Assembly: GCF_003208055.1 (NCBI RefSeq)
Contig: NZ_QJUE01000006.1
Span: 1 to 64,000 of the forward strand
Length of the DNA stretch: 64,000 nt
DNA from: Prochlorococcus marinus XMU1408
GTDB taxonomy: Bacteria > Cyanobacteriota > Cyanobacteriia > PCC-6307 > Cyanobiaceae
Reading direction: 5' to 3'
The translations under genes were made by a program, and so were the position numbers. Each line of letters begins with the position of its first letter. Position 1 is the first letter of the stretch. A model generated the notes under the pieces. It worked only from the letters and a program-made list of their open reading frames with translations, ran no database searches and was not told the origin of the DNA. Below, piece by piece: positions 2 through 7,244 of this stretch.

Positions 2-2008
2 TATAATCTAGGAAATATATTGAGAGCTCTTGGTAAATTACAAGAAGCAGAAGAATCCATCAGAAAAGCAATTGAACTTAAGCCTGATTTCGTAGAAGCA
101 CATTCAAATCTAGGACTTGTTTTAAAAAATCTTGGCAACTTAAGCGATGCAGAATTATCACTTCGCAAAGCAATTGAACTTAAACCTGATTTCGCCAATG
201 CTTATTCCAATCTAGGAACAATCTTGAAAGATCTTGGCAACTTACATGAGGCTGAATTATCACTTCGCAAAGCAATCGCACTTAAACCTGATTTCGCCAA
301 TGCTTATTCCAATCTGGGAACAATCTTAAAAAACCTTGGCAATTTAAAGGAAGCTGAATTATTTCAGCGCAAAGCAATTGAACTTAAACCTGATTTTGCA
401 AGTGCTTATTTAAACTTAGGAAATACATTACGAGATCTTGGTAATTTAAAAGAAGCTGAATTATTTCAGCGCAAAGCAATTGAACTTAAACCTGATTTCG
501 TCAATGCTTTTTTAAACTTAGGAAATACATTACGAGATCTTGGCAATTTAAAAGAAGCTCAATTATCACTTAGTAAAGCATTTAAACTTCAGCCTGAAAG
601 TGCTATTACTAATCACAATATGGGAATGATATTTAATGATCTTGGTAAATACCACACAGCTATAAAATTTTTTAAAAAGAGTATAGAGTTAGATAATGAT
701 TCAGTATTTCCCAAATGGGGCTTAATTACATCAAAAGGATATATATGCGATTGGAGTAACCATGAGAATCAAAATAAATGGTTGGAAAAGCTAGGAATTG
801 AGGGTTCACCTGTAATACCATTAAGCTTATTTTATTATGAAGATAATCCATTAAAACAATTAAAAAGAGCTCAGAATTTATATAAGAAAAAATATCAAAA
901 AGAAACTAAATCTATAGGACATTTTAAAAATAAAAAAATTCATATTGGATATTTCTCAGCTGACTTCAGAGCTCATCCCATGATGTATCTAATGAGCTCT
1001 ATGTTCAAATTACATGATAAATCTAAATTCAAAGTATACCTATACTCATTTGTGAATAAGGAAGATGAGTATACTAAAATAGCAAAGGAATCTGGATGTA
1101 TTTATAGAGATATAAAAGAATTAAATGATCTTGAGGCTGTTGAATTAGCAAGAAGTGATAGATTAGATATAGCTATTGATCGTATGGGTTATGTTAGTGG
1201 AAATAGAATGAATATATTTTCTTATAGAGTAGCACCTATACAAATTCATTATATGGCATATGCTGGAACACTTGGAGCTGATAGTATCGACTATCTTATA
1301 GCAGATAATATAATAATTCCAAAAGAATATGAAAAATATTATTCTGAAAAAATAATAAGGATGCCAAATACTTATCAATGTAATGATAATAAAAAAGAAA
1401 TATGTAAGGAGCCTATTACTCGTAAGGAATTCAATCTTCCTGAAGAAGCATTTGTATTTACTTGCTTTTGTGCTAATAAAAAGATCACTCCACAAGAATT
1501 CGATATTTGGATGAAATTACTTAGATCAATTAATGGGAGTGTTCTTTGGTTATATAAATCAAATGATTATTCAGAAAAGAACTTGATTTACGAAGCAGAA
1601 AAAAGAAAAGTAGATCCAGATAGATTAATTTTTGCCAATAAATTACCATTAAAAAAACATCTAGCAAGACATGCTCTTGGAGATTTAGCACTAGATACTT
1701 TTAATTATAATGGTCATACAACTACCTCAGATGCTTTATGGGCAGGATTACCAGTTTTAACAAAGATAGGGGAAAGTTTTTCTGCAAGAGTCTCTGCAAG
1801 TTTGCTAAACTCAATAGGACTTTCTGAACTTATTACTTCTAGTAAACAAGAATACGAAAAGAAAGCTTTAAAGATCGCTAGTAATCCTAACGAACTTATA
1901 AGATTAAAAACGAAATTAGCCCAATCAAGAGAGACGTCACCACTTTATAATTCAGAATTATTCACTAGAGATCTAGAGAGTAAATTCAAGGATTTGTTAA
2001 ATAAATAA
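2..2008 (+). CDS. TPR-repeat O-GlcNAc transferase-like (SPINDLY-type) protein, 5' partial
   Basis: The reading frame is open to the window edge (Y-N-L-G-N-I before the first possible TTG at 20), so the 5' end is missing. The N-terminal third is at least six tandem 34-residue TPR units of the form A-E-L-S-L-R-K-A-I-E-L-K-P-D-F. After a linker, residues from about 300 to the end match the catalytic region of family 41 glycosyltransferases: G-Y-F-S-A-D-F-R-A-H-P near residue 307 (the conserved His region) and G-H-T-T-T-S-D-A-L-W-A-G-L-P near 560 (nucleotide-sugar binding). Family members move a sugar onto proteins or glycans; the acceptor here is unknown. The TPR units are nearly identical at DNA level with a 102-bp period. 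Such genes are common in surface-modification islands. Confidence 0.85.
   Translation, partial: YNLGNILRALGKLQEAEESIRKAIELKPDFVEAHSNLGLVLKNLGNLSDAELSLRKAIELKPDFANAYSNLGTILKDLGNLHEAELSLRKAIALKPDFANAYSNLGTILKNLGNLKEAELFQRKAIELKPDFASAYLNLGNTLRDLGNLKEAELFQRKAIELKPDFVNAFLNLGNTLRDLGNLKEAQLSLSKAFKLQPESAITNHNMGMIFNDLGKYHTAIKFFKKSIELDNDSVFPKWGLITSKGYICDWSNHENQNKWLEKLGIEGSPVIPLSLFYYEDNPLKQLKRAQNLYKKKYQKETKSIGHFKNKKIHIGYFSADFRAHPMMYLMSSMFKLHDKSKFKVYLYSFVNKEDEYTKIAKESGCIYRDIKELNDLEAVELARSDRLDIAIDRMGYVSGNRMNIFSYRVAPIQIHYMAYAGTLGADSIDYLIADNIIIPKEYEKYYSEKIIRMPNTYQCNDNKKEICKEPITRKEFNLPEEAFVFTCFCANKKITPQEFDIWMKLLRSINGSVLWLYKSNDYSEKNLIYEAEKRKVDPDRLIFANKLPLKKHLARHALGDLALDTFNYNGHTTTSDALWAGLPVLTKIGESFSARVSASLLNSIGLSELITSSKQEYEKKALKIASNPNELIRLKTKLAQSRETSPLYNSELFTRDLESKFKDLLNK
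41..590 (+). repeat. 102-bp tandem coding repeats (TPR units)
   Basis: Successive units share long identical stretches such as GCAATTGAACTTAAACCTGA at 34-codon spacing. They encode the TPR solenoid of the glycosyltransferase-like gene. The low divergence between units implies recent duplication or ongoing homogenisation. Confidence 0.85.
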
Positions 2009-2367
2009 GTGTAAAAATGATATTAAATTAATATATTTATTTTTCTAGTAAAAGTAATAATTTTTTATAAAACAAATAATAAACTTATGTAATTGCAATA
2101 TTAACTATATAAAATCAAAAAAGTCATTATCAATGATAAGAATTATATTTCGAAGTTCATATTCCAAAAAAGTTCTACCAACAATATTCGAGTCAAATAA
2201 CATGAACAAATATTGTCCTCATTCCATATTCTTTAAGTCTATTAGTAATTTTTAGCGATTTCGAACTCGTCTGAACTAATTAAAGGAGGGAGAGTCTTCT
2301 CTGACACTGCAATTATTCCTGTTATTGGTTTATGTGCCTTTATGAGCTCTCATATCAACCTATGATG
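2009..2367. other. Gene-free stretch of 359 bases between two accessory genes
   Basis: It is very AT-rich at its left end, with a weak hairpin ATATTA-AAT-TAATAT just after the TPR gene stop, followed by a T-rich run that may act as a terminator. A 40-codon ORF begins with ATG at 2133 but shows no recognisable features. The right part holds a degenerate copy of the tRNA-Ser flank (2262-2294). No RNA gene was seen. Confidence 0.5.
2262..2294. repeat. Degenerate copy of the tRNA-Ser 3' flank (left)
   Basis: CGAACT-n4-TGAAC-n-AAT followed by AAAG and a GGAGGGAGAG purine tract aligns with the sequence just outside the tRNA-Ser 3' end (5282-5315). About 15 of the first 19 bases match, and both copies have GAAC words 10 bp apart. 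I read this as an old attachment-site scar, which is inference. Confidence 0.4.
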
Positions 2368-2389
2368 ACCAATAAGAACGGAGAGGGAG
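2368..2389. repeat. Direct repeat of the tRNA-Ser 3' end and flank (candidate att site)
   Basis: The 22-base segment contains GAACGGAGAGGGAG and matches 5295-5317 apart from one missing A. In the distal copy the purine tract is the last 8 bases of tRNA-Ser plus its T-stem side. It sits just before a GTG-started small gene and also forms a hairpin, AACGGA-gagggag-TCCGTT. A tRNA 3'-end direct repeat bounding accessory DNA is the usual mark of site-specific integration. Confidence 0.6.
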
Positions 2390-2396
2390 TCCGTTA

Positions 2397-2660
2397 GTGG
2401 CGAACCATAAAGAACGGCAGCGGAAGGGAATGAGAGCGTTAAAACTTCTTTTATTGGAATTGTGTATCAGAGAAGCGAAGTGGATAGGGAAGCATCCCAA
2501 CTCATTAAAACTTCAGAGAGTTCCAATAGAAGAGTTTGAACAAACCTTTGATTATGGATTAAAAGATATAACCAAATTTGACGACTTCAATCAAGTAGTT
2601 GATTGGCAAAATAGTTCATTTTATCAAGCAATTAATCAATCATCTAGCGTTATTAGTTAA
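2397..2660 (+). CDS. Small hypothetical protein, 87 aa
   Basis: I do not recognise this protein. It starts at GTG, preceded at 7 nt by GGGAG, which lies inside the tRNA-Ser-like direct repeat. The N-terminal half is basic (K-E-R-Q-R-K-G-M-R and I-R-E-A-K-W), with a leucine-rich helix at residues 13-24. The C-terminal half is acidic and polar. There is no signal peptide, membrane segment or cysteine motif. A further degenerate att-like copy lies inside its first codons. The gene lies between the two TPR genes and looks like island cargo; whether it is translated is unproven. Confidence 0.5.
   Translation: MANHKERQRKGMRALKLLLLELCIREAKWIGKHPNSLKLQRVPIEEFEQTFDYGLKDITKFDDFNQVVDWQNSSFYQAINQSSSVIS
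2404..2429. repeat. Second degenerate copy of the tRNA-Ser flank, inside the start of the small gene
   Basis: ACCATAAAGAACGG followed by a purine-rich tail matches 5295-5320, with about 4 differences in 26 bases. It lies 36 bp after the 2368 copy, and GAAC words are again 10 bp apart (2402 and 2412). It supports the view that this boundary holds several attachment-like sequences. Confidence 0.4.
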
Positions 2661-2742
2661 GTATTGATAATCTCAGAAAGAGGTTCAAATGGCACTTATA
2701 GTTAGTAGTAGAATTACTTCATACAAAAGTTCTTAGAAGATA

Positions 2743-4527
2743 ATGGAATCTAGTGATAAAGATCAAGGGAAAAAGAATACACCTCAAGTCCAAACATTTT
2801 CAATTCCATTTCCTTTAAGAGAAAATCAAGAAAACATCACTATTAATACAAATACTCCTACGCAACCTTCTAAAGAACAAATAATTAATCAAGCATTTAA
2901 GTTTCATTCACAAGGAAACATTTCAGAAGCAGCAAAATATTATCAATATTTCATAAATCAAGGTTTCAAAGATCACAGGATTTTTTCTAATTATGGAACA
3001 ATTTTACAAGGTCTTGGCAAATCACAAGACGCAGAATTGTCATTTCGTAAAGCAATTGAAATTAATCCTGATTACGCAGAGGCTTATTCCAATTTGGGAG
3101 TCTTATTGAATGATCTAGGCGAATTACAAGACGCAGAATTACATACTCTCAAAGCGATTGAAATTAAACCTGATTACGCAGAGGCTCATTCCAATCTGGG
3201 AAACATATTAAAAGAACTTGGAAAATTACAAGAAGCAGAATTACATACTCTCAAAGCGATTGAAATTAAACCTGATTACGCAGAGGCTCATTACAATCTA
3301 GGAATCATATTGAGAGCTCTTGGCAAGCTACAACAAGCAGAAATTTCATATCGCAAAGCAATTGAAATTAAACCTGATTACACAGAGGCTCATTCCAATC
3401 TGGGAAACATATTGAAAGAACTTGGAAAATTACAAGAAGCAGAATTGTCATTGCGCAAAGCAATAGAACTTAATCCTAATCTAGGAAACGCTTACTATCA
3501 TCTATCACTTCTTAATTCCTTATGTGACAACAAAAGTTGGCAGGACAGACTTTTCTCTGAAAGCATCTTAAAGAATCAAAAGGAAAAAGACCTAGTTGAT
3601 ATTTACTTTGCCAGGGCGAATATTCTAGAAGAAAATTATAATTTCCCTCAAGCCTCTCATTTTCTAAAGAAAGCAAATAATTTGAATAGAAATATATATG
3701 GCTCAAATTATTCAGATATCAGGCAAAAAATAGAGAGTTGCTATCATAAAGTTTGGGAAGAAAAAAAAATAGATTTAAATCAAATAAATAATCTTCCTAT
3801 TCCAATTTTTATAGTTGGATTACCACGATCTGGTAAAACAATTACCGAAACAATACTTGCCTGTAATAATAAATTAATAAAATGTGGAGAGGATTACACA
3901 CTTCCAAAGGCTATAAAAATATATCACGAGGAAAAAGAAAATTTACTTGATTCAAATTTATCCAAGCTCTACTTCGAAAATATAGAAGCAGATATTTCCG
4001 GGAAATCATTTATTTCTACAACATTGCCAATGAATTTCATCAACATTGGATTAATTACTAGTCAAATTCCTACAGCAAGGATTATTTATTGTTACAGAAA
4101 TCCTTTGGATAACATTAAAGAGACCTATAAAAAGAATATGGGAAATAAAAATACATACTCTTGTTCTATAGTTGAATCAGCAAATCTTTATATAGAAGTA
4201 TACTTTTTAATGAAAGAATATCAGAAAAGGTATAATTCTATAATATATTTTCTAAATTACGATGATCTAGTCACAAATACTGGAGAAGAAATAAAACATC
4301 TTATTGATTGGCTTGGTTGGGAAAACAATAATAAATATTTAGAGCCTAATCTAGATCCGAAGACAATAAAAATAACAGGAAAAATTGATCAACAAAGAAT
4401 AAATGAAAATGAAATATCCAGCTGGAAAAACTATAGAGATCTTTTAAAGCCCGCAATTCAAATATTTAATAGTAATACAAAATTTAGAAATCTATTTAAG
4501 CAATATGTAGAGGAAATGAATCAATAA
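2743..4527 (+). CDS. TPR-repeat sulfotransferase-like protein
   Basis: 594 aa. Residues 1-45 are a polar leader, and TPR units run from about residue 45 to 250 (A-I-E-I-K-P-D-Y-A-E-A-H type). A sulfotransferase domain starts near residue 352 with I-F-I-V-G-L-P-R-S-G-K-T, which matches the 5'-phosphosulfate-binding loop of PAPS-dependent sulfotransferases. Y-C-Y-R-N-P-L-D-N follows about 100 residues later and matches the 3'-phosphate-binding region. TPR-sulfotransferases move sulfate from PAPS to proteins or glycans; the target here is unknown. The TPR part is close at DNA level to the upstream TPR gene, suggesting a shared origin or recombination. No signal peptide is seen. It lies inside the putative tRNA-Ser island. 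Confidence 0.8.
   Translation: MESSDKDQGKKNTPQVQTFSIPFPLRENQENITINTNTPTQPSKEQIINQAFKFHSQGNISEAAKYYQYFINQGFKDHRIFSNYGTILQGLGKSQDAELSFRKAIEINPDYAEAYSNLGVLLNDLGELQDAELHTLKAIEIKPDYAEAHSNLGNILKELGKLQEAELHTLKAIEIKPDYAEAHYNLGIILRALGKLQQAEISYRKAIEIKPDYTEAHSNLGNILKELGKLQEAELSLRKAIELNPNLGNAYYHLSLLNSLCDNKSWQDRLFSESILKNQKEKDLVDIYFARANILEENYNFPQASHFLKKANNLNRNIYGSNYSDIRQKIESCYHKVWEEKKIDLNQINNLPIPIFIVGLPRSGKTITETILACNNKLIKCGEDYTLPKAIKIYHEEKENLLDSNLSKLYFENIEADISGKSFISTTLPMNFINIGLITSQIPTARIIYCYRNPLDNIKETYKKNMGNKNTYSCSIVESANLYIEVYFLMKEYQKRYNSIIYFLNYDDLVTNTGEEIKHLIDWLGWENNNKYLEPNLDPKTIKITGKIDQQRINENEISSWKNYRDLLKPAIQIFNSNTKFRNLFKQYVEEMNQ
2990..3500 (+). repeat. 102-bp tandem coding repeats (TPR units) in the sulfotransferase gene
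   Basis: Units share identical runs such as AAAGCGATTGAAATTAAACC and ATTACAAGAAGCAGAATT. The segment TTGAGAGCTCTTGG occurs both here (near 3308) and at the very start of the window in the first TPR gene, so the two genes could recombine. Confidence 0.75.
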
Positions 4528-4691
4528 ATGATAGTTTTTTAATCAATACTATGTCCTAGAAGATAATAAGCAAATAACCTTACAAAACTGAGAAAAGTTT
4601 GAAGAAAAACATCCCAACACTTTCGCGGGAATGTATCAGTTCTGGGTTTGAAAAAGCGAATAAATAATTATTCTAAAAATAAGAAAATCAA

Positions 4692-4901
4692 ATGAGAACA
4701 CAAGGTATTTACATAAATGTTTCACGCAGAAATGATGATTTACCAGAAATGATTGAGGAGTATTCAGAAAAGTTCAACCTATCCAAAGCGGATACGGTTG
4801 CTGAGATTCTTAGAGCGTATCCAAAACTTATTGCTTACAAGCAGAAGGTAATGGAAGAAGAAAGCAGATCATTTGGGAGGATGTTTTCTAATGCCGTATG
4901 A
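4692..4901 (+). CDS. Small ribbon-helix-helix-like protein, 69 aa
   Basis: A short beta strand (residues 5-10, I-Y-I-N-V-S) precedes two helices (about 17-30 and 32-43, with S-K-A-D-T-V-A-E-I-L in the second). This is the layout of Arc/CopG-type ribbon-helix-helix DNA-binding proteins, which often regulate mobile elements or toxin-antitoxin pairs. The family call comes from predicted layout, not from a search. The ATG has no strong ribosome-binding site. A 27-codon ORF overlaps its 3' end, and a strong terminator follows about 100 bases later, so it may be the regulator of a small island operon. Confidence 0.5.
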   Translation: MRTQGIYINVSRRNDDLPEMIEEYSEKFNLSKADTVAEILRAYPKLIAYKQKVMEEESRSFGRMFSNAV

Positions 4902-4974
4902 GAAGAACAAAACCTCCTACCAAGATGAGGAGTTGTTTGAGAGAGAGCAAAGAGAAGAGTTAGTGAATACATAG
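4891..4974 (+). CDS. Possible 27-aa overlapping ORF
   Basis: The ATG lies 11 bases inside the end of the ribbon-helix-helix-like gene, with GGGAGG 10 nt upstream, giving a coupled arrangement. The peptide is highly charged (D-E-E-L-F-E-R-E-Q-R-E-E-L) and would be helical. It could be a partner of the upstream DNA-binding protein or simply chance; support is weak. Confidence 0.25.
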   Translation: MPYEKNKTSYQDEELFEREQREELVNT

Positions 4975-5005
4975 AACAGAGAATCCTATTTCTCATTTGG
5001 AGTAG

Positions 5006-5037
5006 AGAGCACCCACCGTTACGGGTGCTCTTTTTTT
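5006..5037 (+). terminator. Strong Rho-independent terminator
   Basis: A 9-bp GC-rich stem AGAGCACCC / GGGTGCTCT with an 8-nt loop is followed by a run of T. It would end transcripts reading rightward from the small accessory genes and protect the convergent tRNA-Ser. It is the clearest canonical terminator in the window. Confidence 0.9.
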
Positions 5038-5070
5038 ATGCCTTCTTTTAAGGAGAGGGAGGAGAAAAGA

Positions 5071-5184
5071 AACCCCCACATCCTCAAAAAAGTTTCCCCC
5101 CACGCAGCACCCGAAAAAGAAAGATATACCTGAGATCTCCCTTCCCTTCAGTAATTTCCATTCCCCCCACATTTCCCCCCACAC
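5071..5184. repeat. Cluster of C-tract repeats (G-tracts on the minus strand)
   Basis: Four short repeats occur in 114 bases: AACCCCCACAT (5071), TTTCCCCCCAC (5093), TTCCCCCCACAT (5161) and TTTCCCCCCACAC (5172). This is striking in so AT-rich a genome. A minus-strand ORF over the region has low-complexity W-G-E repeats and is probably not a gene. Upstream, at 5052, lies a further GGAGAGGGAGG equal to the tRNA-Ser 3' tract. Confidence 0.55.
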
Positions 5185-5306
5185 AGAACTCGGAATCTGT
5201 GGCACACTACGAACAGGTGCGAACTCTTTATTCTTCTAATCCCTTACTGCTACTGAGTTATTTCTGTTTTCTGAACTTATACGAACTTACCTGAACCAAT
5301 AAAGAA

Positions 5307-5395
5307 CGGAGAGGGAGGGATTCGAACCCTCGACAGAAGTTACCTCCTGTAACTCCTTAGCAGGGAGCCGCTTTCAACCACTCAGCCACCTCTCC
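5307..5395 (-). tRNA. tRNA-Ser (anticodon GCU)
   Basis: The acceptor stem GGAGAGG pairs with CCTCTCC, and the discriminator base is G. The anticodon loop CTGCTAA lies on a GCTCC/GGAGT stem and reads AGC/AGU codons. A long variable arm, typical of serine tRNAs, and the T-arm GGGTTCGAATCCC are present. CCA is not encoded. Its 3' end borders the accessory region, and parts of that end recur at 2368-2389. Confidence 0.95.
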
Positions 5396-5455
5396 ATAAT
5401 TAATACATTATCAAGTCAAAGCTCAAAAAATATATATTGTGATCCTCTTCGGATG

Positions 5456-6655
5456 TTAAGTGATTACTCTAGGGAGTCGATTTCTAAAACTGCAAAGAAC
5501 TTCCCAAGGAATTGATCCAGATAAATCACTCCAATACTGAGGAGAAATAAAGTTTTCACCATCAGTTCCAAGAAGTGTTAAAACTTGGCCAACTCTGATA
5601 TCTGGTTTGTCAGTTATGTCAAAAACCATTTGATCCATAGCAATAGAACCAACTTGAGGTACTAAAACACCATCTATGGATGCAGATATCTTGCCAGAAA
5701 GAGCTCTACTCACTCCATCTGCATATCCAATAGAAACTACAGCAAGCTTGCTTTCCCTTTTAGTTTTAAATAAATGTCCATAGCCCACTCCTGTTCCCTC
5801 TTGCACTTCCCTAATTAATGTTACTCTGGCCTTAACTTTTAAGGCTGGCTGAAGATTCAAAATAGACTCAAAATTATTAATCGGTAGATAACCATACAAA
5901 CTTAGTCCAACTCGAACCATGTCAAAATGGAGTTGTTTATTGGAAAGTGTTCCTGCAGAATTTGCCAAGTGTCTACAAAGGGAATTGCTCCTCACACCTA
6001 TATCTTTCAATACCTTTTCAAATCTGTTTAATTGAATCTGAGTAAAACTGATAAAAGACTGATTCAAATTATCTTCATCAGCAATCGCAAGATGACTATA
6101 AATTCCTTGCAATGAAATACTGTCTAAGCAATCAATTTTAGAAACCAAATCTTCTACTTCATTGCAATTACATCCAAGTCTTGTCATTCCTGTATCTACC
6201 TTTAAGTGAATAACGAATTTTTTATACTTATGTTTAGCGATGTTGTTACAGATTATTGCCTCACGAATACCACTAATCGTAGGAATCAGATCCCAGTAAA
6301 AAGAGGAATACAATTCTTCTGAATTTATTAGATTTCCAAGAATCAATATCTGGCATGTCAAACCAGCATTTCTTAATTGAATTCCCTCTTCTAAAGTTGC
6401 TACACCAAGGGTATCAGCACCTCCATTTAAAGCAGCCTTTGCGACAGTCTCTGCTCCATGGCCATAACCATCAGCTTTGACAACTGCCATTAGTAAGCAA
6501 TCTTTGCCAATATAGTTTTTCAAGACTCTTGCATTATTTTCAATTGCTTTAGAATCAACTTCAACCCATGCACGACTACAAGGGTCAGGTTTAATTACAC
6601 TTTTAGATGTCTCATCAAAAGTGACTAACTTTTCACTCTTACGGATGTTGGACAT
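5456..6655 (-). CDS. alr: Alanine racemase
   Basis: 399 aa. PLP-dependent interconversion of L- and D-alanine, supplying D-Ala for peptidoglycan. The PLP lysine lies in V-V-K-A-D-G-Y-G-H-G near residue 60, the catalytic tyrosine region is G-V-G-Y-G-H near 290, and the C-terminal M-D-Q-M-V-F-D beta-domain motif is present. The first 25 residues are longer than in many homologues, so a later start is possible, although no better ATG precedes the conserved W-V-E-V-D-S. The gene is divergent from the HNH gene. Confidence 0.95.
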   Translation of the reverse strand: MSNIRKSEKLVTFDETSKSVIKPDPCSRAWVEVDSKAIENNARVLKNYIGKDCLLMAVVKADGYGHGAETVAKAALNGGADTLGVATLEEGIQLRNAGLTCQILILGNLINSEELYSSFYWDLIPTISGIREAIICNNIAKHKYKKFVIHLKVDTGMTRLGCNCNEVEDLVSKIDCLDSISLQGIYSHLAIADEDNLNQSFISFTQIQLNRFEKVLKDIGVRSNSLCRHLANSAGTLSNKQLHFDMVRVGLSLYGYLPINNFESILNLQPALKVKARVTLIREVQEGTGVGYGHLFKTKRESKLAVVSIGYADGVSRALSGKISASIDGVLVPQVGSIAMDQMVFDITDKPDIRVGQVLTLLGTDGENFISPQYWSDLSGSIPWEVLCSFRNRLPRVIT

Positions 6656-6737: not shown

Positions 6738-7244
6738 ATGGGTCAAGTTCTTGTTTTGAATGCGTCCTATGAACCATTGAACATCACTTCATGGCGTCGC
6801 GCGACTGTCTTAATGCTTAAAGGTAAGGCTGAAAGTCTTGAAGAAGATCCTGCTCACAATATTCGACAAGATGTAAAAGCCCCTACTGTAATAAGATTAA
6901 GACAATTTATTAGAGTTCCATATCGTGATATCCCTTTAAGTAGAAAAAATATATTTCAAAGAGATCATAACTGCTGTCAATATTGTGGCCAAAAAAATAA
7001 AAAACTTTCAATTGATCATGTCCTACCCCGCAGTAGAGGAGGAGCAGACAATTGGGAAAATGTTATTACTGCCTGTCTTCAATGTAACGTAATTAAAGGT
7101 AATAGGACACCTGAAGAGGCAAAAATGCCATTAATAACAAAACCTTACAAACCTTTGAATAATATGAGTTTTGAGACGACAAGACAAATTCACTCCGGAC
7201 GCCACAAGGAATGGGGTAAATATGTAATTGGATGGGTAGCTTAG
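6738..7244 (+). CDS. HNH endonuclease domain protein
   Basis: 168 aa. C-x2-C at 80/83, I-D-H-V-L-P at 92-97, R-G-G-x2-N-W-E-N-V and a second C-x2-C at 113/116 form a complete zinc-structured HNH nuclease fold. The N-terminal N-A-S-Y-E-P-L-N-I region is typical of a small HNH family found across cyanobacteria. The substrate is not known; nothing nearby suggests an intron, phage or restriction system. It converges on prfA with only 6 bases between the stops. Confidence 0.85.
   Translation: MGQVLVLNASYEPLNITSWRRATVLMLKGKAESLEEDPAHNIRQDVKAPTVIRLRQFIRVPYRDIPLSRKNIFQRDHNCCQYCGQKNKKLSIDHVLPRSRGGADNWENVITACLQCNVIKGNRTPEEAKMPLITKPYKPLNNMSFETTRQIHSGRHKEWGKYVIGWVA

Follow-up and report, generated by a model that had tools for sequence, protein, structure and literature searches.

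A tRNA-Ser(GCU) island site in Prochlorococcus marinus XMU1408 composed of tandem, integrase-less units with attP-like arms

Several systems are known in which mobile units gather at a fixed chromosomal site. Integron cassette arrays are made up of small tandem units joined at a recombination site, with attC and IntI as their hallmarks. Tycheposons border on one of the seven tRNA genes that they use; those of Prochlorococcus were reportedly described by Hackl et al. in 2023. Passages of PMC10872708, PMC10654061 and PMC11389934 treat tycheposons in Prochlorococcus, with a size range of 4-200 kb quoted in PMC10872708, and a passage of PMC10654061 has it that Prochlorococcus lacks the canonical routes of horizontal transfer and apparently makes use of tycheposons. 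Cis-mobilizable elements (CIMEs) are defined in a passage of PMC5704250. For Methylophilaceae, part of PMC10872708 presents a flexible genomic island of the additive type in which the last 20 nt of tRNA-Lys are repeated.

Here, we analyzed a window of 64,000 nucleotides (the whole stretch of DNA studied, from the first base of its contig) that holds a variable region beside tRNA-Ser(GCU). We read this region as a tycheposon-like tRNA-island site whose units are non-autonomous, CIME-like, and would be served by an integrase acting in trans; the probability of this reading is about 0.7.

The site beside tRNA-Ser(GCU) and its displaced cores

In relatives (designated by G numbers), the site between the psaA-psaB-psaL block and tRNA-Ser(GCU)-alr varies from 0.13 kb in G007, a near-empty site of the same genus, to 28.9 kb, the largest whole site measured. 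Empty sites were compared between different species rather than strains of the window species, namely through G007 in the genus and through G156 against G397 in another genus of the family. Displaced cores follow the original flank in G010 and G029. The tRNA 3' end is repeated at both island ends in G010, G029, and G397, and the window has internal copies only; base 1 of the window is base 1 of the contig, which puts the left island end out of view. The first-pass annotation had proposed an island targeted to tRNA-Ser, and the near-empty site, the variation in size, the displaced tRNA 3' ends, the tandem units, and horizontal spread seen for some units support this target by comparison. The proposal of a single island was too simple, since several nested or tandem units lie inside the window, among them one of 2.9 kb (2374-5317). 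The features are as follows.

20..2008, +, gene with TPR and glycosyltransferase family 41 parts, cargo left of the first core (PF13844, E 8e-78)
2164..2294, +, decayed left (P) arm ending in an eroded core (alignment)
2295..2373, +, second decayed arm, which runs into the intact core (alignment)
2374..2389, +, intact att core AAGAACGGAGAGGGAG, a displaced tRNA-Ser 3' end (genome-wide exact match; core counts)
2390..2440, +, right (P') arm of type TCCGTTAGTGG, covering 2404-2429, C-rich arm word absent
2397..2660, +, 87-aa ORF that starts within the right arm; relatives known from other islands, without a family match that passes the cut-off
2743..4527, +, TPR and sulfotransferase gene, cargo (PF13469, E 5.7e-21)
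4692..4901, +, 69-aa protein, possibly ribbon-helix-helix (weak model)
5004..5033, +, intrinsic-terminator-like hairpin (two such hairpins against a shuffle mean of 1.3)
5052..5061, +, probable remnant of a core (GGAGAGGGAG), at which a 256-bp arm unit begins on the left
5063..5301, +, arm unit resembling attP, its C-rich words at 5073, 5096, 5163, and 5175
5302..5317, +, att core that extends into the tRNA 3' end
5306..5396, -, tRNA-Ser(GCU), integration target
5456..6655, -, alr (alanine racemase), conserved right flank

The ribbon-helix-helix identity of the 69-aa protein is weakly supported by a model of mean pLDDT 61.5, in which helices are predicted at residues 14-27 and 32-42. The motif GAAC recurs in the region of the arm unit at 5186, 5211, 5221, 5273, 5283, 5293, and 5304, several of these copies being spaced by 10-11 bp.

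The core AAGAACGGAGAGGGAG has two exact copies in the 1.795-Mb genome, 2374-2389 and 5302-5317, and ten further places lie within three mismatches, each with three. The best local match of 5282-5317 within 2008-5281 scored 39 against a maximum of 28 in 300 dinucleotide shuffles, which confirms that more copies of the tRNA-Ser(GCU) 3' end and flank are present than chance would give. With partners chosen post hoc from four, 2101-2300 scored 62 against the arm and core of G015 (1000-shuffle maximum 29), 2295-2390 scored 67 against the arm of G013 (27), and 2390-2440 scored 78 against the right arm of G001 (25); the fourth partner, G012, reached only 35.

Four repeats had been described as attachment-like, and they proved to be of different kinds. 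The copy at 2368-2389 holds the intact core. Because alignments to the arms of relatives exceed the shuffle maxima, 2262-2294 is taken as the end of a decayed arm with an eroded core. Alignment places 2404-2429 within the right arm rather than in a separate att site, and that arm recurs in G001, G002, G004, G006, G030, and G063. Within the first 6 kb, the 10-mer GGAGAGGGAG stands at 2380, 5052, and 5308. The arm unit starting at 5052 aligns in eight loci, with the 10-mer kept in five and eroded in three, and in G025 and G001 it is joined at this end to another arm via the 16-bp core; 5052 is therefore likely, not certainly, an old core. Its left neighbor, the terminator segment, is common to the window, G034, G026, and G021, and partly to G029.

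Several of the window copies are eroded, and one may ask whether short purine-rich sequences coincide here by chance. We consider the probability of this negligible. The annotation had proposed a comparison with random windows as a way to refute the repeats; they exceed their shuffles, and for the three remaining tRNAs the 3' end does not recur in the window at up to 4 mismatches of 20, with a single place at 5. Among 20 island sequences (164 kb in all), the core at up to two mismatches is present 55 times in one orientation, a count that includes 19 copies in the tRNA itself, and the opposite orientation and a reversed control give 0 each; at three mismatches the counts are 4, 1, and 0 in this order. 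Chance coincidence is rejected on the shuffles and the orientation control.

Tandem units, arms and arm words

Comparison of the islands shows tandem units bounded by the tRNA-derived core. We read 28 sequences of the genus and found an internal core (up to three mismatches) in 25, among them three contigs that lack the tRNA (G001, G019, G063). No such core is present in the near-empty G007 or in G021 and G035, whose contigs end 1-2 kb from the tRNA. The 25 sequences hold 55 core-to-core units, catalogued with cores of up to three mismatches except the window core at 5046 (GGAGAGGGAG at 5052), which was placed by hand. Eleven units of 201-257 bp are too short for more than arms. As cargo, units of the genus carry methyltransferases, oxygenases, and TPR genes that also encode sulfotransferase, glycosyltransferase, or other parts, among others. 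A 76-aa protein of a 0.87-kb unit is also found at other loci, beside other short repeats and in permuted order.

The arm unit of the window is 98.3% identical in G035, 97.9% in G021, 96.2% in G001, 93.2% in G034, and 90.0% in G025, while the neighboring alr is 74-82% identical in the 24 sequences of the genus that hold it. This comparison therefore shows, at the level of sequence, that some units spread horizontally between species.

Both sides of the cores bear attP-like arms with repeated C-rich words. Their density is 6.9 per kb within 260 bp left of the cores against 0.33 per kb elsewhere, 135 are on the plus strand and 1 is on the minus strand, and they sit at preferred distances. Left and right arms pair in different combinations at the core. 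We tested whether the words at one end of a unit match those at the other. Twelve units below 600 bp were excluded: in 11 of 201-257 bp the stretches taken as arms overlap, and one, of 540 bp, fell under the length limit. Of the 43 units of at least 600 bp, 19 lacked a word on at least one side, which left 24. Words matched at both ends in 11 of these 24 (shuffle mean 4.1; reached by 1 of 10,000 shuffles) and, without look-alikes, in 11 of 21 units (3.7; 0 of 10,000). The remaining 13 of the 24 have words on both sides yet none in common. The 2.7-kb cargo unit of the window is degraded; neither of its arms contains an arm word, and it may therefore be inert.

Genes could also have been shuffled by homologous recombination between TPR repeats or repeated flanks, with no site-specific step. 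TPR coding repeats about 65-90% alike are present in many islands, among the matches listed, and recombination between TPR genes could move some cargo. As a general account this is improbable, however: the arm changes map to the 16-bp core in one orientation, arm words keep preferred distances, and the empty sites are clean.

Integrases and the proposed mechanism

The genus was searched with the PF00589 profile and, since this profile did not report the integrase of G397 (only PF14659 did, below the cut-off), again with the G397 protein. No intact integrase was detected at the site in 41 genomes of the genus, compared by place (six unbroken, many draft), although many draft sites end at contig edges, where a missing integrase is weak evidence. 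The first pass had likewise seen no integrase gene in the window region. The island of G013 contains an integrase fragment with a stop. A 285-aa ORF of G011 was considered as an integrase and rejected, with no Pfam match at E 0.1 or better. In the window genome, a tRNA-Ser-type integrase was not detected and the only PF00589 match is far away on another contig; a helper would therefore have to come from outside.

In the other genus, comparison shows elements with integrases at the same tRNA in G397, G404, and G410; the G397 integrase has an AlpA-like neighbor. The word TCCCAACAACA of G397 and G404 and the word TACCAACAACA of G397 also occur in units of the window genus; the arms of G410 have a different word. 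G402 encodes a related integrase, with the tRNA absent from the 15 kb read. The empty site of G156 matches G397 at 186 of 200 positions left of the outer core, 34 of 100 to the right and 100 of 100 on the tRNA side. Against G410, 83 of 200 positions left of the core agree, an ungapped count lowered by a small length difference.

A viral origin was considered and rejected: the arm region gave one 28-bp match in phage records, to a Burkholderia phage, and of five pattern matches in viral contigs, none was confirmed as a relative of the G018 integrase. A search of IMG/VR for the 16-mer core returned seven contigs, a raw count.

Integrase-less units stacked like cassettes in relatives suggest an enzyme borrowed from related elements. 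The mechanism that we infer, including order of arrival, trans action, helper identity, vehicle between cells, and present activity, would start from a hot spot of site-specific integration, the tRNA-Ser(GCU) 3' end. An element would enter by recombination at the core, its P arm ending up beside the tRNA and its P' arm on the far side; later arrivals would use the core at the tRNA and displace older units into a tandem array. The units would most likely be non-autonomous kin of integrase-bearing tRNA-Ser elements; the integrase of such an element would integrate and excise them in trans, or they would be carried along in cis once accreted. The earlier suggestion of reliance on another integrase is supported by the integrase-bearing elements at the same tRNA, but not proved.

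Alternatively, the units may be decayed remains of elements that lost their own integrase, with movement dependent on an integrase in cis. The G013 fragment, the eroded cores and arms of the window, the lack of matching words in 13 of 24 units, and the occupation of tRNA-Ser(GCU) by integrase-bearing elements in another genus agree with decay. We regard it as unlikely, given 0 intact integrases detected at the site in 41 genomes, compared by place, against 55 core-to-core units in 25 of 28 island sequences, the existence of units only 201-257 bp long, and arm units 90-98% alike across species.

A further reading, tentative and with odds somewhat below even, is that the units are tRNA-anchored cassettes with single-gene, multi-gene, and cargo-less lineages (the last about 200-257 bp of bare attP), stacked at tRNA-Ser(GCU), in which one of several words, present in both arms, would act as an "address" that selects a helper from a set of related tRNA-Ser integrases. 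Such helpers would act in trans and come from elements at tRNA-Ser(CGA) or in other cells. If true, the accumulation of integrase-less units with integrase-naming arm words would explain how cargo spreads without an integrase of its own. Helper dependence would become testable by challenging one integrase with attP sites bearing different words, and bare units would be natural minimal attP sites, usable for a site-specific integration tool.

Comparison with known systems

The window site, with its border at tRNA-Ser(GCU), resembles tycheposons in having a tRNA target and cargo, and Prochlorococcus records from another genus of the family include integrase-bearing elements at this tRNA. The comparison to tycheposons made at first pass fails for the recombinase and the size: a tyrosine recombinase is borne by the elements of G397, G404, and G410, whereas none was detected at the site in the 41 genomes of the window genus (the G013 fragment aside), and the window unit of 2.9 kb is under the range quoted in the passage of PMC10872708. 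Tandem, integrase-less units, some of them arms alone, also differ from tycheposons.

Units of the window genus retain att sites and have lost the integration gene, as CIMEs do in the definition given in that part of PMC5704250, and they likewise accrete in tandem at a tRNA 3' end. Many small units, possibly mobilized in trans rather than in cis, set them apart from this definition. The Methylophilaceae island shares tRNA 3' ends recurring beside the tRNA, a streamlined aquatic host, and variable size; attP-like arms, matched arm words, and a helper integrase are not mentioned in the passages on it in PMC10872708.

The integrase islands at tRNA-Ser(CGA) of the same family (PF13356 and PF00589 in G018) are close in other respects. 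The two tRNA 3' ends differ at a single position of 22 nt. Arm words of this kind number three or more in 17 of 21 loci, and a word pair stands 12 bp apart, as in the window. These islands use another serine tRNA and encode their integrase within. Integron arrays share small tandem units that meet at a recombination site, but the joint here is a tRNA-derived core with arm words.

The tRNA-Ser(GCU) site and the repeats of its 3' end

The window lies at the start of contig C6 (131,791 bp), in a genome of 1,795,147 bp and seven contigs. The repeats derive from one gene:
5306-5396, minus strand, tRNA-Ser(GCT)

The first-pass annotation had noted that the 3' end and flank of this gene recur in degenerate form, and this is borne out. 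Local alignment of 5282-5317 with 2008-5281 scored 39, exceeding all 300 dinucleotide shuffles, that is, random sequence of like composition (maximum 28), and the 16-bp core, AAGAACGGAGAGGGAG, was found without mismatch at two places in the whole genome, 2374 and 5302. No comparable repeats of the three other tRNAs were found in the window at up to four mismatches. Alignments with relatives (G-numbers) lend support to the putative weaker copies. The repeat at 2262-2294 is backed by alignment of 2164-2294 with an arm (an attP-like flank of the core) plus core in G015, and 2295-2390 aligns with an arm in G013. The repeat at 2404-2429 does recur, but as part of a right arm (2390-2440) matched in G001 rather than as an att copy of its own. 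An arm unit that aligns in eight loci has the 5052 10-mer at its left end; the 10-mer is kept in five of them and eroded in three, and in G025 and G001 it forms a full junction with another arm; in the window, however, its left neighbour is common to G034, G026, G021 and, partly, G029.

In relatives, the site is bounded on the left by a block which we take to be psaA-psaB-psaL, followed by five more genes and one of low complexity, and on the right by tRNA-Ser(GCU)-alr. In the window, alr is adjoined, outside the island, by a gene of the HNH endonuclease family (6738-7244). The proposed island is not constant among relatives: the start of the low-complexity gene lies 0.13 kb from the tRNA in G007, 1.7 kb in G010, 4.7 kb in G026, 4.8 kb in G029, 10.7 kb in G011, 10.9 kb in G033, 11.1 kb in G020 and 28.9 kb in G034. 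The G002 site measures about 14 kb by sequence matches, the start of this gene not having been located. As predicted for integration into a tRNA 3' end, the first core past the original flank in G010 and G029 is the displaced tRNA end; it is eroded at that place in G034.

The cargo of the window comprises TPR-GT41, TPR-sulfotransferase and small proteins, and that of relatives includes TPR genes with different C-terminal parts and, among ten proteins scanned, FkbM methyltransferase, 2OG-Fe(II) oxygenases and DUF1651. Such cargo may act on surface glycans or in phage resistance. One small protein had been called ribbon-helix-helix-like:
4692-4901, 69-aa protein, helices modelled at 14-27 and 32-42 (mean pLDDT 61.5)
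No family match passed the cut-off; given the two modelled helices, the protein may be of ribbon-helix-helix type. TPR coding repeats at 2985-3494 and 1-650 (102-bp period, 74-82% alike) recur, among the matches listed, across many compared island sequences, and one tract meets the contig end at base 1.

Arms, words and exchange of units

Across 20 sequences (164 kb), the core at up to two mismatches was present 55 times in one orientation (19 being the tRNA itself), with none in the opposite orientation and none in the reversed control. Its left and right neighbours are of recurring types, differently combined at the core. Short C-rich words, including TTCCCCCCACA, CTCCCAACAACA, CACCCAACA, CTCCTCACA and TTCCTACAACA, have, in the 260 bp to the left of cores, a density of 6.9 per kb on the plus strand and 0.05 on the minus strand, vs 0.33 elsewhere (28 sequences). 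They are most frequent at 121-140 bp to the left of the core and at 80-119 bp to its right. In the attP of tyrosine integrases, the core is flanked by arm-type sites; by analogy, the layout of words is that of such an attP, the two flanks being putative P (left) and P' (right) arms.

Core-to-core units numbered 55, of which 43 were at least 600 bp long and 24 carried a word on both sides. A 9-mer word was common to both ends in 11 of these 24 (shuffle mean 4.1; 11 attained in 1 of 10,000) and, with look-alikes removed, in 11 of 21 (shuffle mean 3.7, 0 of 10,000); 13 of the 24 had no word in common. The chief rival explanation is that the integrase-less units are relics. In the window, the word search found no words in either arm of the unit 2374-5046, and its own mobility is therefore doubtful; what looks intact there is the arm unit next to the tRNA. 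Eleven of the 55 units are 201-257 bp long, with room for arms alone, and five of 255-257 bp share one arm type (G001, two in G006, G025 and the window, whose left core was set by hand).

Sequence identities show that some units have spread horizontally. The window arm unit (5063-5301) recurs in G035 (98.3% identical), G021 (97.9%), G001 (96.2%), G034 (93.2%) and G025 (90.0%), with shorter alignments in G002 (91.1%, 213 bp) and G029 (97.9%, 141 bp), and the remaining copies are 68-80% identical; alr identity is 74-82% among the 24 genus sequences holding it. A 0.87-kb unit of G029, encoding a 76-aa protein, matches seven genomes over nearly its full length at 89.5-95.6%. In G034 and G002, the place at the tRNA is taken by another unit, with a window-like arm inward of it; we read the unit at the tRNA as the newer arrival.

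The 76-aa protein (L053 13411-14299, L181 9.8-10.4 kb, L190 5.3-5.8 kb, also L183 and L185) is present in 23 of 41 genus genomes; in the tRNA-Ser(GCU) site it sits in units of 0.87-1.4 kb. Elsewhere its neighbours are other short repeats, about 57 bp long and permuted in order, a hint that cassettes bounded by repeats may be of a second kind as well.

Candidate integrases for the site

The lack of an integrase gene noted in the window extends to this site in the genus genomes searched. Searches of 41 genus genomes with PF00589 and the G397 integrase, and of 400 family genomes, part of them from this genus, with the G018 integrase, comparing match positions and contigs with cores, found no intact integrase in the tRNA-Ser(GCU) site, an absence that is weaker for drafts, whose sites are often cut by contig ends (six of the 41 genomes are single contigs: G002, G011, G020, G026, G033 and G034). 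The G013 island contains an integrase fragment with a stop codon.

One lead to a helper is a 427-aa integrase (PF13356, PF00589) of the same genus, in G018, located at tRNA-Ser(CGA), which differs from tRNA-Ser(GCU) at one of 22 bases of the 3' end. Its relatives were found in 79 of the 400 family genomes. tRNA-Ser(CGA) was present at 21 of 30 such loci read; 17 of the 21 carried a similar word in at least three copies, typically 177, 158, 137 and 125 bp to the left of the core, while two had two copies and two had other or no such words.

A second lead is the G397-type integrase. Relatives bearing it are shown by sequence to occupy the same tRNA-Ser(GCU) site. In G397 (another genus of the family), a 9.7-kb element with cores at 1571273 and 1580950 ends at tRNA-Ser(GCU) and encodes a 430-aa integrase, an AlpA-like protein (PF05930) and a resolvase (PF00239); an extra core (1570267) lies 1 kb outside. 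G156 represents the empty site: it agrees with G397 at 186 of 200 positions to the left of the outer core and at 34 of 100 to its right, and at all 100 positions compared on the tRNA side. Both G397 arm words, TCCCAACAACA and TACCAACAACA, occur in units of the window's genus. Related integrases lie at tRNA-Ser(GCU) in G404 (56% identical, word TCCCAACAACA) and G410 (45%, another word); that of G402 had no tRNA within the 15 kb read. Among named genomes, tRNA-Ser(GCU) lies no more than about 6 kb away, on the same contig, at five of seven loci with this integrase type; four of these belong to Prochlorococcus records and the fifth to a record labelled Spirochaeta. The latter, a MAG contig (L266) whose integrase is 41% identical to that of G397, is perhaps misbinned.

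The G397 integrase (L238 8748-10040) was unreported by PF00589 at E 0.01, so surveys by PF00589 alone may undercount such elements. Other genus integrases lie no more than a few kb from tmRNA, tRNA-Arg(CCT) and a tRNA-Thr(GGT)-Tyr pair (L193 and L194 in G007, contigs C3 and C12; L192 in G002; L182 in G031), and this pair occurs twice in the stretches read of G002 and G031.

Proposed mobilization and comparison with known systems

The comparisons show the locus to be a tRNA-Ser(GCU) integration site with tandem units and attP-like arms, whose integrase-less units would be moved by an integrase acting in trans or, once accreted, in cis. We give this whole reading a probability of about 70%, lowered because the 5052 junction did not arise independently but is also found in four relatives, and because in drafts the site is frequently incomplete. 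For the same two reasons we also set slightly lower a more specific version, itself less likely than not, in which the units would be lineages of their own whose arm words select a trans-acting tRNA-Ser integrase.

Tycheposons are described as 4-200 kb long elements that target seven tRNA genes and carry a tyrosine recombinase (PMC10872708). The first-pass comparison with them holds for a tRNA target and cargo, but the window unit lacks the recombinase and falls outside that size range, and is therefore not classed as a tycheposon; it may still be functionally dependent on one. Additive islands in which the last 20 nt of tRNA-Lys are repeated are described in the same paper. In the literature searched, to which the original tycheposon paper did not belong, no account was found of tandem units without an integrase at the tRNA-Ser(GCU) of Prochlorococcus, and we do not claim that there is none. 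Cis-mobilizable elements (CIMEs) have lost integration and transfer genes, retain attL and attR and undergo tandem accretion (PMC5704250); in their anatomy the units fit this description.
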